Both the position numbers and the translations under genes were made by a program. The notes beneath the pieces are model-generated. The model ran no database searches and was not told where the DNA came from. It saw only the letters and a list, made by a program, of their open reading frames with translations. A stretch of 5,749 nucleotides of DNA from Candidatus Eiseniibacteriota bacterium (GTDB lineage Bacteria > Arandabacterota > Arandabacteria > JAGLYR01), in NCBI GenBank assembly GCA_023132135.1, contig JAGLYR010000210.1, positions 1 to 5,749 of the forward strand. The letters run 5' to 3'. Shown here piece by piece: positions 1-5,749 of this stretch (positions within the stretch are counted from its first letter, which is position 1; every line of letters begins with the position of its first letter).

Positions 1-659
1 TGGAATTCGTCGACCACGATGTGCCGGTATCGCTCCCGGTACCGCCGCAGGACCGACGGGTCGTCACGGAGCAGGAACACGGTTTCCATCAGGAGATCAT
101 CGAAGTCGAGCGCGTTGCTGGCTCTGAGGAGTGCGTGGTACCGCTCGTAGAGCCGGGCGACAACCTCTTGCCAGTAACCGTCTGGTTGGTACGCCCCCGG
201 AAGCAGCATGCTGTTCTTGGCTCTTGAGATCTCACCCAGGACAGATCCAGGCCGCCACTTCTTGTTGTCGATCTCAAGATCCTCAAGAACCCGTTTTATT
301 GTGCGTAGCTGGTCGTTGGTATCGAAGATCACAAACCGGCCGTCGAATCCGCGTCTTCCTCCCTCGCGCCGCAGGACGCGCACACAAATGGAGTGAAACG
401 TTCCTATCGTCAACCGGCCCAGAGCCTCCGCCCCAATCAGTCCCTCGAGGCGGTCTTTCATCTCGCCAGCCGCCTTGTTCGTGAACGTGACCGCCATGAT
501 CCGCCACGGCCGCACGTCGGCCGCGCCCACAAGCCATGCCACGCGGTGGGTGAGGACGCGGGTCTTTCCCGACCCCGGCCCTGCCAGAACCAGAACAGGC
601 CCATCAGTTGCCCGAACCGCCCGCAGCTGTTCGGGATCCAGAGCAGATTCAAGATTCAA
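1..659 (-). CDS. uvrD: UvrD/PcrA-family ATP-dependent DNA helicase, N-terminal part (cut by window edge)
   Basis: This is the first 219 residues of a superfamily 1A DNA helicase, an ATP-driven 3'-5' translocase of the UvrD/PcrA/Rep group that unwinds DNA in repair and in clearing stalled forks. Helicase motifs appear in order: a Q-motif-like LDPEQLRAV (residues 7-15), Walker A GPGSGKT (27-33), motif Ia VTFTNKAAGEMK (57-68), motif Ib GTFHSI (86-91), DFDDLL (185-190) and the start of Walker B, VVDEF (215-219), where the window ends. Full-length relatives have roughly 650-780 residues, so about two thirds is missing. The chosen start is TTG at 659-657, with GGAGGT at 669-664 well placed before it. 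A GTG two codons upstream (665-663) is possible but overlaps that ribosome-binding site. The gene follows the barrel-protein gene by 72 bases and may be in its operon or independently transcribed. UvrD, PcrA and Rep cannot be told apart from the N-terminus, so the symbol stands for the family. Confidence 0.95.
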   Translation of the reverse strand, partial: MNLESALDPEQLRAVRATDGPVLVLAGPGSGKTRVLTHRVAWLVGAADVRPWRIMAVTFTNKAAGEMKDRLEGLIGAEALGRLTIGTFHSICVRVLRREGGRRGFDGRFVIFDTNDQLRTIKRVLEDLEIDNKKWRPGSVLGEISRAKNSMLLPGAYQPDGYWQEVVARLYERYHALLRASNALDFDDLLMETVFLLRDDPSVLRRYRERYRHIVVDEF

Positions 660-731
660 TTGCACCTCCGGAGAAACTGAAGATACTGAAGAGGCCGAAA
701 AGACGGAATGAAGGCTGGTGAAAAATGCGGG
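660..731 (-). other. Intergenic spacer between the barrel-protein gene and the helicase gene
   Basis: This 72-base spacer is pyrimidine-rich on the coding strand and contains an imperfect 9-base tandem repeat (plus-strand aactgaaga/tactgaaga, 675-692, 8 of 9 identical). I see no stem-loop followed by a T-run, so there is no sign of an intrinsic terminator between the genes, and no convincing -35/-10 pair. It stays open in the helicase frame back to the TAG of the upstream gene (734-732). Confidence 0.6.
664..669 (-). promoter_or_regulatory. Shine-Dalgarno site that decides the helicase start
   Basis: On the coding strand GGAGGT (669-664) lies four bases before TTG (659-657). This favours TTG over the in-frame GTG at 665-663, which overlaps the site. 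The first half of the site is also part of a perfect 8-base palindrome, CTCCGGAG (673-666), which is probably too short to form a stable hairpin alone. Confidence 0.7.
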
Positions 732-3686
732 CTAGAAATCGCCGCCCAGCGTGAAGTGGACTCGGTTCTCGTCGACATGGCTGAAGTCCGTCGGCCAGGC
801 GAAATCCACCCGGATAGGGAAGTACCCAAACCGCCACCGCACACTCAACCCGAAAGAAGCATGAACATCGTCGAGGACAAACCCACCGCGACCGGAGCGG
901 GCAACCCGCACAGTCCTGATGCTATCCCACGCACTGCCCACATCCATAAACATAGCCCCCCCGATGTTTCCAAGGGCGATCGGCAGAGGCCAACCCAGCG
1001 CCAGGTACCGGATGAACGGGTACCTGAGTTCCAATGAGAACAGGCCAACACCGTGGCCCCGGAACTCGAAATCCCGGTAACCTCTGAGGAGATACCCGCC
1101 GCCGAGGTAGAAGTACTGCGCATTTTCCCCCGCACTCACGGCTCCGAGGGCCCTCATCGCAAAAGTGTAGTCCCTGGAGAGGGGCACGTACTTGCGAAGA
1201 TCCACGATCCCCGTTGTCATCTTCCGTTCGTTCCCCAGAATTCCCCTGAGGGAATGCCTGATCTCCGCATAGCAGCGAGCGCCGTTGACGGCTCCCAGCA
1301 TGCCCCAGAGGGCCGTGTCGTGAACCAGAGCGATGCGGGGCAGCAGCAGGGTTTCGTCTTCCTGGTAGCGCAGGGGCGGGAATGTCCCGTAGTAGCTCGT
1401 GAACTCGTAGACCTTGCGCTCGATCCGCATGAGCGTCACATCGAACTCGACCCGCTGGAAGCGGTTGAACGGGCGGCTGGCCAACGCGGTCAGTCCATAG
1501 TTTCTCTCGGAAAAGAACTGGTTCCCGTCACCTTGCGAGAGGGGCTCGCTGAGAAGCGTGGGGCTGCCGTAGAAGTAGTTCTTGTAGTGGAAGAGGCCGA
1601 ACCCGTAGTCGGTCCGCCTGGGCAGGTGGTAGTAGAACGAGAGGAAATCCATTTCCTCGAAAGAGGTAAAGAAGTTGGTCGCGAGGAAGAAGCGGTGGTT
1701 ACCAAGAACATCGCTCACCGTCAGCTGTGTACTGCCTCCTGCTCCCACAGCGGAGTTGTACTGGAGACCGCCGCCAATGTAGTCCGGACTGAAGCTGACC
1801 CGGTAGCGCGACAACCAGCGCTCGCCGTCGCCCACAGGAGTCTCGTCTTCCTCCATAAGATCGAGAAGACTGTCCGGAACCACAGGCCAGTTCAGAGCCG
1901 CCGTATGGACCATGATGGAATCGCCAAAGGTTCGGGCGACATAAGGCGCTTCCTGCTCCTCAACAGGTTCAAGATCCAGTGGATCCCGGAGCGCATACAC
2001 GTCCCAGCCGGCTTTCTGAAACACCGAGAACACCAGGCGGTTGCCCTCCAGCGACCAGCTTGGAGTGAATATCCCGCCCATAACACGGGTCAGCTGCCTC
2101 ACCTCCATCCTGTCCAGATCCAGGAGATGGAGGTCGTCGGTGCCGGAGCGATCGGAGACAAACGCAAGGTACTTGCCGTCCGGCGACCAGGCCGGATGCT
2201 GATCGTTGGCAAGACAATGAGTCAGACGTCTCTTCTCCCCCGTGGTCATGTCCAGGAGAAACAGGTCATGAGTCCGGGTTACTTCCAAGGGAGATGTGGC
2301 CGACTCAAACCACGGTTCGTCCGATGAATAGGCCACGTACCGCCCGTCCCTCGACCACACCGGGGCGCGCTCGTCAAAGATGTCGTGGGTGAGCCGCGTA
2401 ACGCTCTCATCCCCCAGAGAAAACTCGTAGAGGTCAGAGAACCCGCTACGGAGTCCACTGACGACAATCCGATCGCCCTCCGGCGACCAGGTCGGCGAGC
2501 TCATGGCGTCCAGATCCGTCGGAATCTCCTGGAGGATCTTCCCGTTCTCCGAGTCCATCACATACAGCACGTGACGCTCCACCGACCTGGCCACGAAGGC
2601 CACACGGCGACTGTCGGGCGCCCAACACATTGTGGAGCGGAAAGCGGCCAGCTCCTGGAACTTCCCGGACCGCTCTCCCTTGAGCAACCTCCGGATGATC
2701 TTACCGTCCAGGGCCGACATCAGGTAGACGTCACTAAAACCGTCCCGGTCGGAGACAAAGACGATTCTCTCCCCGTCAGGTGAAATGGCGGGGCCCAGGT
2801 TGATGTTGGAAGCGTCCTTCTCGTGATCCGTGAGTTTCCGTGCTTTGTCCGCCAGATCCTCGCGCTCGGCCACCTGGGGCCAGTACACCTTCTTCAGATG
2901 CGCGAGGAGTTTCTCAGACAGCTTCGGGGTCGGGACACCTATCGTTCTTTCCAGGGCAGCATCCATGTTCCGGCTGTCCCGGAGAGCCTGGAGAATCTCG
3001 GGGATCTTCTCCGCCCCGTACGTTTCCTCGATGAACCGGAGCGCCGCCTGCCCCTCCTTGTACACCATGTACCCGCCCGTGTACTCGAGCGGCGGAATCC
3101 ACTCGTTGACAACCGCGTCCCGGATCACACGGTCCGCCTCCGTGTCCCACTCCTCCGACATGTGCTCCGCCAGGCCCTCGGCAAACCACAGGGGGACCTG
3201 AAACAGGTACTGCCGCGCGAAGATGGATTCGAGGAGTCCTCCATAAAGCTGGTCGAACATGAAGGCGTGCGTGAGCTCGTGCGTCACCACATGACGCAGA
3301 TCCTCGTAGGAGCCCTGGAAAGGGATCACGACGCGGTTCTTGAAGATCTCCGTGAACCCTCCGGTTCCCTCCGAGATGATCTCCGTGATCACGTTGGTCT
3401 GCTGGAAATCCGCGTGGCAATTGTAGACAAGAATGGGGATACGCTTGGCAGCAGTGTGGCCCGTCCTCCTGCTGAGCATCACGTGCGCGTCTTCGGCGAT
3501 GTCCGCCACCGTTTCGGCCAGGACTCTCCCACCCTCATAGAAGTAGATATCGAAGTGGTCGGTGCTCAGGATCTGCCACTCAAACTCCCTGTACTGGACC
3601 TTGTTCTTGCCGAACACCTGGCCGTCGGCGGTCCCGGCCACAGCAAGAGAAACCAGTATCGCAATTGCTGCAAAAACATGTCTCAT
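732..3686 (-). CDS. Secreted gluzincin peptidase / PD40 beta-propeller / Omp85-like outer-membrane barrel fusion protein
   Basis: Complete 984-residue protein, predicted to sit in the outer membrane. Domains in order: a signal peptide (about 1-22, basic MRH start, hydrophobic core, likely cut near AGTA-DGQ); a peptidase-MA-like zinc metallopeptidase domain (about 30-275) with HELTH at 136-140 and a probable third ligand, Glu170, in WFAEG; six TolB-like PD40 repeats (about 298-566), several with the xPxWSPDGxxxAFxSDR pattern; a linker (about 567-620); and a BamA/TamA-like barrel (about 621-984) rich in alternating aromatic strands, with LRGY at 867-870 matching the conserved Omp85 loop motif and a C-terminal Phe as expected for recognition by the Bam machinery. 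No POTRA repeats are visible. ATG at 3686 is preceded by GAGGG at 3700-3696 and leads straight into the signal peptide. The gene begins 23 bases after the tamB-like stop, which suggests one transcript and a shared role in the envelope. The catalytic residues look intact, but substrate and activity are unknown. A surface-associated protease or a barrel partner for the TamB-like protein are both possible. Confidence 0.93.
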   Translation of the reverse strand: MRHVFAAIAILVSLAVAGTADGQVFGKNKVQYREFEWQILSTDHFDIYFYEGGRVLAETVADIAEDAHVMLSRRTGHTAAKRIPILVYNCHADFQQTNVITEIISEGTGGFTEIFKNRVVIPFQGSYEDLRHVVTHELTHAFMFDQLYGGLLESIFARQYLFQVPLWFAEGLAEHMSEEWDTEADRVIRDAVVNEWIPPLEYTGGYMVYKEGQAALRFIEETYGAEKIPEILQALRDSRNMDAALERTIGVPTPKLSEKLLAHLKKVYWPQVAEREDLADKARKLTDHEKDASNINLGPAISPDGERIVFVSDRDGFSDVYLMSALDGKIIRRLLKGERSGKFQELAAFRSTMCWAPDSRRVAFVARSVERHVLYVMDSENGKILQEIPTDLDAMSSPTWSPEGDRIVVSGLRSGFSDLYEFSLGDESVTRLTHDIFDERAPVWSRDGRYVAYSSDEPWFESATSPLEVTRTHDLFLLDMTTGEKRRLTHCLANDQHPAWSPDGKYLAFVSDRSGTDDLHLLDLDRMEVRQLTRVMGGIFTPSWSLEGNRLVFSVFQKAGWDVYALRDPLDLEPVEEQEAPYVARTFGDSIMVHTAALNWPVVPDSLLDLMEEDETPVGDGERWLSRYRVSFSPDYIGGGLQYNSAVGAGGSTQLTVSDVLGNHRFFLATNFFTSFEEMDFLSFYYHLPRRTDYGFGLFHYKNYFYGSPTLLSEPLSQGDGNQFFSERNYGLTALASRPFNRFQRVEFDVTLMRIERKVYEFTSYYGTFPPLRYQEDETLLLPRIALVHDTALWGMLGAVNGARCYAEIRHSLRGILGNERKMTTGIVDLRKYVPLSRDYTFAMRALGAVSAGENAQYFYLGGGYLLRGYRDFEFRGHGVGLFSLELRYPFIRYLALGWPLPIALGNIGGAMFMDVGSAWDSIRTVRVARSGRGGFVLDDVHASFGLSVRWRFGYFPIRVDFAWPTDFSHVDENRVHFTLGGDF

Positions 3687-3709: not shown

Positions 3710-5749
3710 CTAGTACCGGTGCCGCAGCTTCACGTCCAGGTTGAAGTGCGTCTTGCCATTGTCCATGCTGGCTTCGCCGTCGAGGGAAAGTGACCGGCTG
3801 AGCCGGTACTCCAGCAAAAGCTGTTGGTCGGGTAGCTCGGCCTCCGCCCTGGAGACAGCGGCCCCCGCCTCTACAGAGGTCCCTCCCCCGAGCGGGTTAA
3901 CGGCCAGGGATTGCTCGTACTTTAGATAGAGGCGGTCCGAGACATATTTGCCAACCCCTACCCGCGTACCCCCGACAAAGCCCGGATCGCCCGGATCGCC
4001 CGGACCCGGTTCGATTTCGAGCTCATCCAAACCCAGACTCCTGGCCAGTCCACTCCCGAACTTCTTGGCCAGGAGCTTGCCCCACGAACGGGCCAGCGTC
4101 CGGGAGAAGGGCGAGGCCGCTCCTCCATCAGGGCCGGCCGCCCTCTGCCCAAGGGCCAGGAGGCGGAAGATCTCCGGTTCACTATACCCACTTTCCGATG
4201 TGGCCGCAAGGTACGGCTTCGCAAGGGTCCCTGTGATATCGAGAGAAACCCGCTCCCTGCCTTCCTCCGTGGCAACTTCAGTCTCCCCGTGAATCTCAAG
4301 ACGGGCGTTTCGGATATCCCGCACGTCTGCGAACTGGATGGACCCCGAGGTGATGCGGAACTCGTTATTGTACAGAAAGTAGCGACCGCGAATGCTCTCA
4401 AGATCGCCCAGGAATCTTGTACCCCGGGCATCTCTTTTGTAACGGATGGAACCCTCCAGTTCGATCTCCGCGTCCGAGTTCCTCAGCCAGACATTGTTGT
4501 CGGCCTCAATCGCAAATTCCGACGTGTAGGTCGGCGCCAGCGCCGAACCCCCGCCGTTGCCCAAGCCCGCCAGATCGCGGGTAATCTCCGCATGATGCAC
4601 AACCACCGATCCCGAGTAACCGGGCACGACGGTCCCGAAGCCCGTCGTGTCCGGCCGTACCAACAGATCTACGTCTACAACAGCGCTGATATCGTCCAGC
4701 AAGGAGGCAATCTCGGCTCTCGCCGCGTTCACGCCGACCCGGTAATCCGTCACACGAAGGGAGTCCATGGTCACCAGGATCTCGGCCACCAGGGATCCGC
4801 CTCCAATGTTGCCGCCGAGACGGTTCACCCGGATGTGATGCCCGTCGAAGACAACGCCCGCCTCCAGATTTGTCACTTCCTCTTCCAGCGGGCCGATGAG
4901 GAGTCTACCACCGCTCACACCCATGGTCCCTTCCAGAAGTGGATCGGCAAGAGAACCGGTAACAGCCAGATCCAGATCGTACACCCCGCTCGACTCCCTG
5001 AATATGGAAGACTTGATGGAGGGAAGGAAGGTGAAGCGACCCTGGCTCACGATAACATCGAGGGAAACGCCGGACGGAGCCGGGGCGATCCAGGGAAACG
5101 TCGGTCTCCCCTGAAGCGGGAGCGCCCCGGTGATCTTGGCCAGAGCTGGACCGCTGGAGATCTCCACCCTGTCGATGACGAGGCTCTGGTCTCGGATCGC
5201 AGACCGAATCTGAACCTGCCCAAGATCGAAGGACCGGAATCGCGCCCCCTCAATCATTGCTTCGATTACACCTTGGGCTCCGCCGGGTTCGCCGGAGAAC
5301 GACGCATCCAGGTGAAGCAGTCCCGAGACGTCCGGCGATTCCGGTGTCCTGGATGCCAGAGCCGCCAGAGGAAAGCCATCCACGTCCAGACTCACGTCCC
5401 CGAGACCCTGGATCTGGAACCGGCTTCCTCCTTCACCCCCCAGGGCAAACTGGACTGGAAGAGATCCCCGCACTTCGCCCCGGCCGCCCCCCATCGTCAC
5501 GACGAGCGAGTCCAAATCCAACCTGGACGTTCCAAGATTGAACACGCCACGTACCGAATCGATATTCCTCCCGCCCACAACCAGTGAATCCACCCCGAAT
5601 GAAACCTGCGCGCTCGGAGCCGCCCGGGTTCCTGTTACAGACACATCCACAAAGGCCGTGCCATCCAGCCCGCGGCCCGGCACAGCAAGGTTCGCGATCG
5701 CGCCGAGAGACATCTGCGTCCCGTGGACTGCGATGTCTGTGGCGCCATC
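3710..5749 (-). CDS. tamB: TamB/DUF490-family translocation and assembly module protein, C-terminal part
   Basis: This is the last 679 residues of a TamB-like protein; the frame is open through the right edge and the true start lies outside. TamB family proteins are anchored in the inner membrane, span the periplasm as a long hydrophobic beta-groove, and pair with an Omp85 barrel (TamA in proteobacteria) in outer-membrane protein assembly or phospholipid transport. The fragment is almost wholly short beta strands with recurring 'G-x-L-x-V-x-G' and 'LDLDSLVV'-like units. The TamB C-terminal domain covers roughly residues 405-679: a DNNVWLRNSDAEIELEG segment, GRYFLYNNEFRITSGSIQF (455-473), SLDITGTLAKPYLAATSES, an amphipathic stretch (about 547-575) and VGKYVSDRLYLKYE (599-612), ending in an aromatic residue (RHRY). 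Family members usually have about 1,000-1,500 residues, so around half is missing. A methionine at 5713 is internal, since 12 more codons are open upstream of it. The neighbouring barrel gene 23 bases downstream supports a TAM-like role. Confidence 0.92.
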   Translation of the reverse strand, partial: DGATDIAVHGTQMSLGAIANLAVPGRGLDGTAFVDVSVTGTRAAPSAQVSFGVDSLVVGGRNIDSVRGVFNLGTSRLDLDSLVVTMGGGRGEVRGSLPVQFALGGEGGSRFQIQGLGDVSLDVDGFPLAALASRTPESPDVSGLLHLDASFSGEPGGAQGVIEAMIEGARFRSFDLGQVQIRSAIRDQSLVIDRVEISSGPALAKITGALPLQGRPTFPWIAPAPSGVSLDVIVSQGRFTFLPSIKSSIFRESSGVYDLDLAVTGSLADPLLEGTMGVSGGRLLIGPLEEEVTNLEAGVVFDGHHIRVNRLGGNIGGGSLVAEILVTMDSLRVTDYRVGVNAARAEIASLLDDISAVVDVDLLVRPDTTGFGTVVPGYSGSVVVHHAEITRDLAGLGNGGGSALAPTYTSEFAIEADNNVWLRNSDAEIELEGSIRYKRDARGTRFLGDLESIRGRYFLYNNEFRITSGSIQFADVRDIRNARLEIHGETEVATEEGRERVSLDITGTLAKPYLAATSESGYSEPEIFRLLALGQRAAGPDGGAASPFSRTLARSWGKLLAKKFGSGLARSLGLDELEIEPGPGDPGDPGFVGGTRVGVGKYVSDRLYLKYEQSLAVNPLGGGTSVEAGAAVSRAEAELPDQQLLLEYRLSRSLSLDGEASMDNGKTHFNLDVKLRHRY
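3981..4007 (-). repeat. 9-base tandem repeat inside the tamB-like gene (Gly-Asp-Pro)
   Basis: The plus strand has cccggatcg twice (3981-3989, 3990-3998), followed by a diverged third unit, cccggaccc (3999-4007). In the protein this reads as a short GPGDPGDPG stretch between the amphipathic segment and the final VGKY strand region, probably a flexible turn or linker. Unit length is a multiple of three, so copy changes would keep the frame. Confidence 0.8.

Follow-up and report, generated by a model that had tools for sequence, protein, structure and literature searches.

Background

In E. coli, outer-membrane proteins that are still folding are acted upon by BepA, YcaL and LoiP (PMC13067283), i.e. 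by separate metalloproteases, and the clearance of stalled outer-membrane proteins is an open question. BepA, a soluble M48 metalloprotease of the periplasm with TPRs, acts on BAM. In PlpD the enzyme is part of an outer-membrane barrel protein: this Omp85 protein, which has one POTRA domain and no propeller, carries a patatin lipase ahead of its barrel, and the enzyme domain is periplasmic (PMC11116518). Within the Omp85 superfamily, Heinz and Lithgow (2014) distinguished ten subfamilies, one of which, 'WD40-Omp85', was likened to a fusion of BamA and BamB (PMC4104836). The TAM system likewise includes an Omp85 barrel protein, TamA; a paper on TAM evolution treats tamB operons with TamA, TamL or BamA, and no WD40 or peptidase partner of TamB was found in its text (PMC4494059).

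Here we describe a protein of 984 residues in which a predicted zinc metallopeptidase, a TolB-like propeller and an Omp85 barrel follow one another and whose gene shares an operon with tamA and tamB. No functional study of this architecture was found among the openly licensed papers searched, and neither the fact that every member examined carries the peptidase nor the position of the gene as third in the TAM operon appears to have been described in the literature searched. The location of the gene beside those of an outer-membrane assembly machine suggests a quality-control protease that is built into the membrane. Our main reading, to which we assign a probability of roughly 0.45, sees in the protein a zinc metallopeptidase of envelope assembly that is anchored in the outer membrane and clears stalled or misfolded outer-membrane-protein clients in a BepA-like manner. 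If true, the family, which occurs in roughly one in three of the searched genomes and stands in the TAM operon here, would have a fixed stoichiometry of protease and barrel and would permit a direct test of the coupling between assembly and proteolysis; the existing picture of WD40-Omp85 would be corrected by the addition of a peptidase that the original description does not mention.

Results and discussion

Domain composition of the protein

The window (i.e. the whole stretch of DNA that was analysed, 5,749 nucleotides) is the entire contig C125 of a source genome that consists of 345 contigs. It holds three genes, all on the minus strand, as are the features given below: the C-terminal 679 codons of tamB (3710..5749; PF04357, 116 bits), truncated at the contig end, the gene under study (732..3686), and the N-terminal part of a UvrD/PcrA helicase gene (3..665; PF00580, 211 bits), also truncated at the contig end. 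The central gene is a single open frame with an ATG start and a stop at 732-734, and lies 23 bases from tamB, which is upstream. Its GC content at the three codon positions (0.61/0.42/0.77) is typical of coding DNA and its product is 43-47% identical, over nearly the whole length, to proteins of genomes of the same class. A sequence-only reading of this DNA had already given the boundaries 732-3686 and had pointed out HELTH at residues 136-140, Glu170, six repeats, an LRGY motif and a terminal Phe; all of these are right, and Pfam matches to Peptidase_MA_2, PD40 and Omp85 bear out its proposal of one polypeptide with a peptidase, a propeller and a barrel in that order.

Inspection of the sequence points to a probable Sec signal peptide without a lipobox Cys (residues 1-23, 3618..3686), and the relatives have comparable N-terminal hydrophobic stretches. 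The probable mature N-terminus is marked by an FGKNK motif (residues 25-29, 3600..3614) that is nearly invariant in the family alignment (G26, N28 and K29 in 81 of 82 members, F25 in 79).

The gluzincin-type peptidase domain (Peptidase_MA_2, PF13485) occupies residues 24-285 (2832..3617). The Pfam match itself covers residues 64-259 with a score of 33.5 bits against a cut-off of 32.4 (the domain by itself scores 39.2 bits), and this nearness to the cut-off may explain why the domain was overlooked. HELTH (3267..3281) is the predicted zinc site and would include the catalytic Glu, whereas Glu170 (3177..3179), located within PLWF.EG, is the predicted third zinc ligand; the HExxH with its downstream Glu and the match to the clan profile place the domain in the peptidase MA clan. 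PF13485 matches every family member scanned. H136, E137, H140, W167, E170 and G171 are unvarying in 82 of 82 full-length aligned members, a set that was selected with a profile including the peptidase and in which peptidase-less members could be under-sampled. The invariance of HExxH and Glu170 despite the wide divergence of these proteins argues for enzymatic activity, and retention of the six residues at such divergence would be surprising in an inactive enzyme. The partial hits that we examined as candidates for peptidase-less members turned out to be genes cut at contig ends or, in one genome (G300), a gene split by an apparent assembly frame change, with HELVH in the neighbouring frame. 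A search of the PDB with the peptidase profile returned no relative above noise by sequence (the best was a collagenase, E 0.11), so that we infer the fold; in an AlphaFold model based on a two-sequence alignment the peptidase motif is borne by helices that have low to moderate pLDDT.

Residues 297-568 (1983..2798; PD40, 115 bits) correspond to a six-bladed TolB-like propeller with the repeats AISPDG, CWAPDS, TWSPEG, VWSRDG, AWSPDG and SWSLEG. Modelled from only two sequences, this part has moderate confidence (pLDDT mostly 60-85, with dips), and its top structural matches in Foldseek are TolB chains (E 1.5e-14), which supports the six-bladed propeller that had been expected from the repeats. 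The family profile, when compared to PDB sequences, also finds TolB first, BamA and TamA being matched as well via the barrel. TolB is nevertheless a different protein, i.e. a soluble component of Tol-Pal without peptidase or barrel, and its full-length profile (TIGR02800) gives 145.8 bits against a cut-off of 343, with only the propeller part matched.

Beyond a variable linker (residues 569-627, 1806..1982), which is gappy and poorly conserved in the alignment, residues 628-984 (735..1805) represent the Omp85 barrel (PF01103, 60 bits, matched at 693-984). An hhalign comparison to a few BamA/TamA barrels resulted in a probability of 99.6 and an E of 1.7e-23, the alignment spanning residues 425-810 of E. 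coli BamA, 810 being the last. In this alignment LRGY (residues 867-870, 1077..1088) is the counterpart of VRGF in L6 of BamA, and R868, E886 and D915 align with R661, E717 and D740, which make up the L6 network in BamA; they are retained in 79, 82 and 79 of the 82 members, respectively. The protein also ends in the terminal Phe. That the C-terminus is a BamA-related 16-strand Omp85 barrel, as the sequence-only reading had it, is supported by these sequence comparisons; AlphaFold with the two-row alignment (mean pLDDT 41.8 for the full protein and 28.2 for the barrel) gave no usable barrel model.

No POTRA family was matched by Pfam in the 984 residues, neither the three domains that characterize TamA nor the five of BamA being found. 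The absence of POTRA domains, which had been put forward as a departure from the normal Omp85 plan, holds in so far as Pfam can tell; it is not exceptional, however, as several subfamilies without POTRA were listed by Heinz and Lithgow (PMC4104836). With a TolB-like propeller ahead of an Omp85 barrel and no POTRA detected, the protein has the composition by which WD40-Omp85 was defined, and the identity of that subfamily with the present family is likely but unproven. The difference is the peptidase, which all members of the present family that were seen carry. A separate matter is PF00149, which we take to be the calcineurin-like phosphoesterase family and not a protease family. The published text names no HExxH peptidase and lacks the word 'peptidase' altogether, and the word 'metalloprotease' is applied in it to a separate 'Metallo' subfamily defined by PF00149 (PMC4104836).

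Genomic context and the TAM operon

The most informative fact about the gene was invisible from the window's letters and concerns its position next to tamB, in a TAM operon that has an ordinary TamA. Contigs C26 and C125 end in an identical stretch of 150 bases (5600-5749 of the window and 14280-14429 of L160): the source assembly breaks inside tamB, and C26 continues upstream of the window with cdsA, rseP, a tamA encoding three POTRA domains and the earlier part of tamB. The order in the source genome is rseP-tamA-tamB-[984-residue gene]-uvrD, which makes the gene the third of the TAM operon. It is preceded directly by tamB in all eight genomes of the class that were examined (the source genome and seven relatives) and followed directly by uvrD in the same-class relatives wherever the contig continues; upstream, the cluster extends in other class members to tsf-pyrH-frr-uppS-cdsA-dxr-rseP-tamA-tamB. 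Three genomes placed outside the phylum (G201, G214 and G332) also have tamB directly before the gene. According to Pfam the order is rseP-tamA-tamB-gene in G201, and in G332 rseP, tamA, tamB, the family gene and uvrD are consecutive, each of them being identified, which is the one case of the full rseP-to-uvrD order outside the phylum. Two further genomes, both of one family, have dxr-rseP-(small open frame)-gene-uvrD. In E. coli, rseP is directly followed by bamA; in some genomes it is the family gene that follows rseP.

Located directly downstream of tamB, the gene could in principle encode a substitute for TamA, i.e. the outer-membrane partner of TamB. Such a replacement is very improbable: a POTRA-bearing TamA is encoded directly upstream of tamB, both in the source genome and in those relatives with long enough contigs, and POTRA, the region by which TamA meets TamB, was not detected in the 984-residue protein. 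We abandoned this explanation on finding tamA upstream and regard it as largely refuted. The source genome moreover encodes a BamA with five POTRA domains (on contig C140), so that the gene is an addition to both TamA and BamA and not a replacement. As an observation, the gene order that links the protein to TAM is suggestive. However, uvrD, which is not an envelope gene and for which we know of no envelope role, is linked as tightly as tamB, and operon linkage alone is therefore no proof of joint function.

The same cluster could also be taken to indicate a TamB-linked role in lipid or lipoprotein transport instead of protein quality control, as cdsA and other envelope-lipid genes are found upstream; yet frr-uppS-cdsA-dxr-rseP is a common housekeeping cluster, and the enzyme domain is a member of a peptidase clan and not a lipase. 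The title of one paper raises the possibility that TAM conducts phospholipids (PMC11014939), but we consider a lipid role of the protein improbable.

Distribution and neighbourhoods of the family

The architecture is confirmed and widespread, and the family to which it belongs is large and has hardly been described. A profile of 21 members finds relatives (E <= 1e-40) in 133 of the 386 genomes searched, or 112 of 328 genera, and most of the matches listed cover nearly the full profile length. The suspicion that the architecture might already exist unnamed in databases was thus correct, a part of it having been published as 'WD40-Omp85' (PMC4104836). A profile scan of genome contigs recovered one relative from an unclassified metagenome-assembled bacterium (L009), and viral contigs scanned with the family alignment contained none.

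Many genomes have two copies of the family gene, including the source genome, where the second lies on contig C323 (L049 164-2947). A quick tree of the 82 members places the tamB- or rseP-linked genes within one clade of 13 (SH-aLRT 95), the only one in which the tamB linkage was seen, and the second copy of the source genome in a separate paralogous clade B of ten members (support 100). The clade B gene is followed by a gene for a BamB-like PQQ propeller in 6/10 members, the second copy of the source genome being one of these. Other members of the family adjoin murA-like genes, GWxTD proteins, M16 peptidases or HEAT-cyclophilin genes. More specifically, the family gene is immediately preceded at five loci (L037, L071, L084, L085 and L088) by a gene of the EPSP-synthase family (probably murA), a gene for a HEAT-repeat protein with a cyclophilin-type prolyl isomerase lies directly upstream at two (L130 and L134, from two genomes), and a gene resembling that for the GWxTD-domain protein of L086 is found downstream at four (L038, L083, L086 and L087).

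These data bear on an explanation that makes the barrel itself an active insertase or translocon; the substrates that it inserts or exports would then be matured or trimmed by the attached peptidase, whose task would not be the clearance of failed ones. All of R868, E886 and D915 are present in 77 of the 82 members, so that the barrel is not visibly degenerate, and the frequent occurrence of two copies per genome would suit dedicated substrates; however, the neighbours differ among clades with no recurring adjacent gene for such a substrate, and the known bacterial insertases and translocases of the superfamily bear POTRA domains, of which the 984-residue protein has none detected. On balance this explanation seems rather unlikely.

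Proposed function

In the quality-control reading that we prefer, the protein would be exported via Sec and inserted in the outer membrane by its Omp85 barrel, which would leave the peptidase and the TolB-like propeller in the periplasm. The peptidase, presumably zinc-dependent, would cut outer-membrane-protein clients that have stalled or misfolded on assembly machines, in this case probably the TAM encoded just upstream, and the propeller may recognise or dock clients or partners. The protein would be an analogue of the E. coli protease BepA, with the difference that its peptidase is covalently joined to an Omp85 barrel, whereas BepA serves BAM non-covalently; both would place an HExxH enzyme at the step of outer-membrane assembly, while their peptidase families differ. 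The reading builds on the invariant HExxH and Glu170, the BamA-like barrel with its L6 residues, the adjacency to tamB, the place of the gene behind rseP in other genomes (the position of bamA in E. coli), the pairing of clade B with a BamB-like propeller gene, and the precedents set by BepA, YcaL and LoiP (PMC13067283) and by the periplasmic enzyme domain of PlpD (PMC11116518). That the clients would be outer-membrane proteins is a guess. The sequence-only reading had seen the propeller as a module that docks or presents substrates between protease and pore, a role that is conjectural, as is the description of the barrel as a pore.

The orientation assumed here is not the only one that can be conceived, as the peptidase and propeller might be passengers that the protein's own barrel takes to the cell surface, resulting in an anchored extracellular protease of the kind first proposed for PlpD. 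Secretion of the Omp85/TpsB type exists (FhaC), and a stand-alone relative with peptidase and propeller occurs in Salinibacter. However, two folded domains with a total of some 600 residues would need to cross, the operon context is one of envelope assembly, and in PlpD, where an enzyme is likewise fused ahead of an Omp85 barrel, the enzyme domain proved to be periplasmic (PMC11116518); we therefore think surface exposure quite improbable. As to the preferred quality-control reading, a more specific version would be that TAM has a third component, i.e. a protease- and propeller-bearing Omp85 barrel from a larger undescribed protease-Omp85 family, which together with TamA-TamB forms an assemble-or-destroy checkpoint. 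We put this version forward as a distinctly tentative one.

The Salinibacter ruber relative is a plasmid-encoded protein of 634 residues (WP_118831798.1; L052 5923-7824) that resembles the 984-residue protein in its HELVH peptidase and PD40 propeller and differs from it in the absence of a barrel. The FGKNK motif is retained in this protein as well, and its annotation reads 'basic secretory protein-like'.
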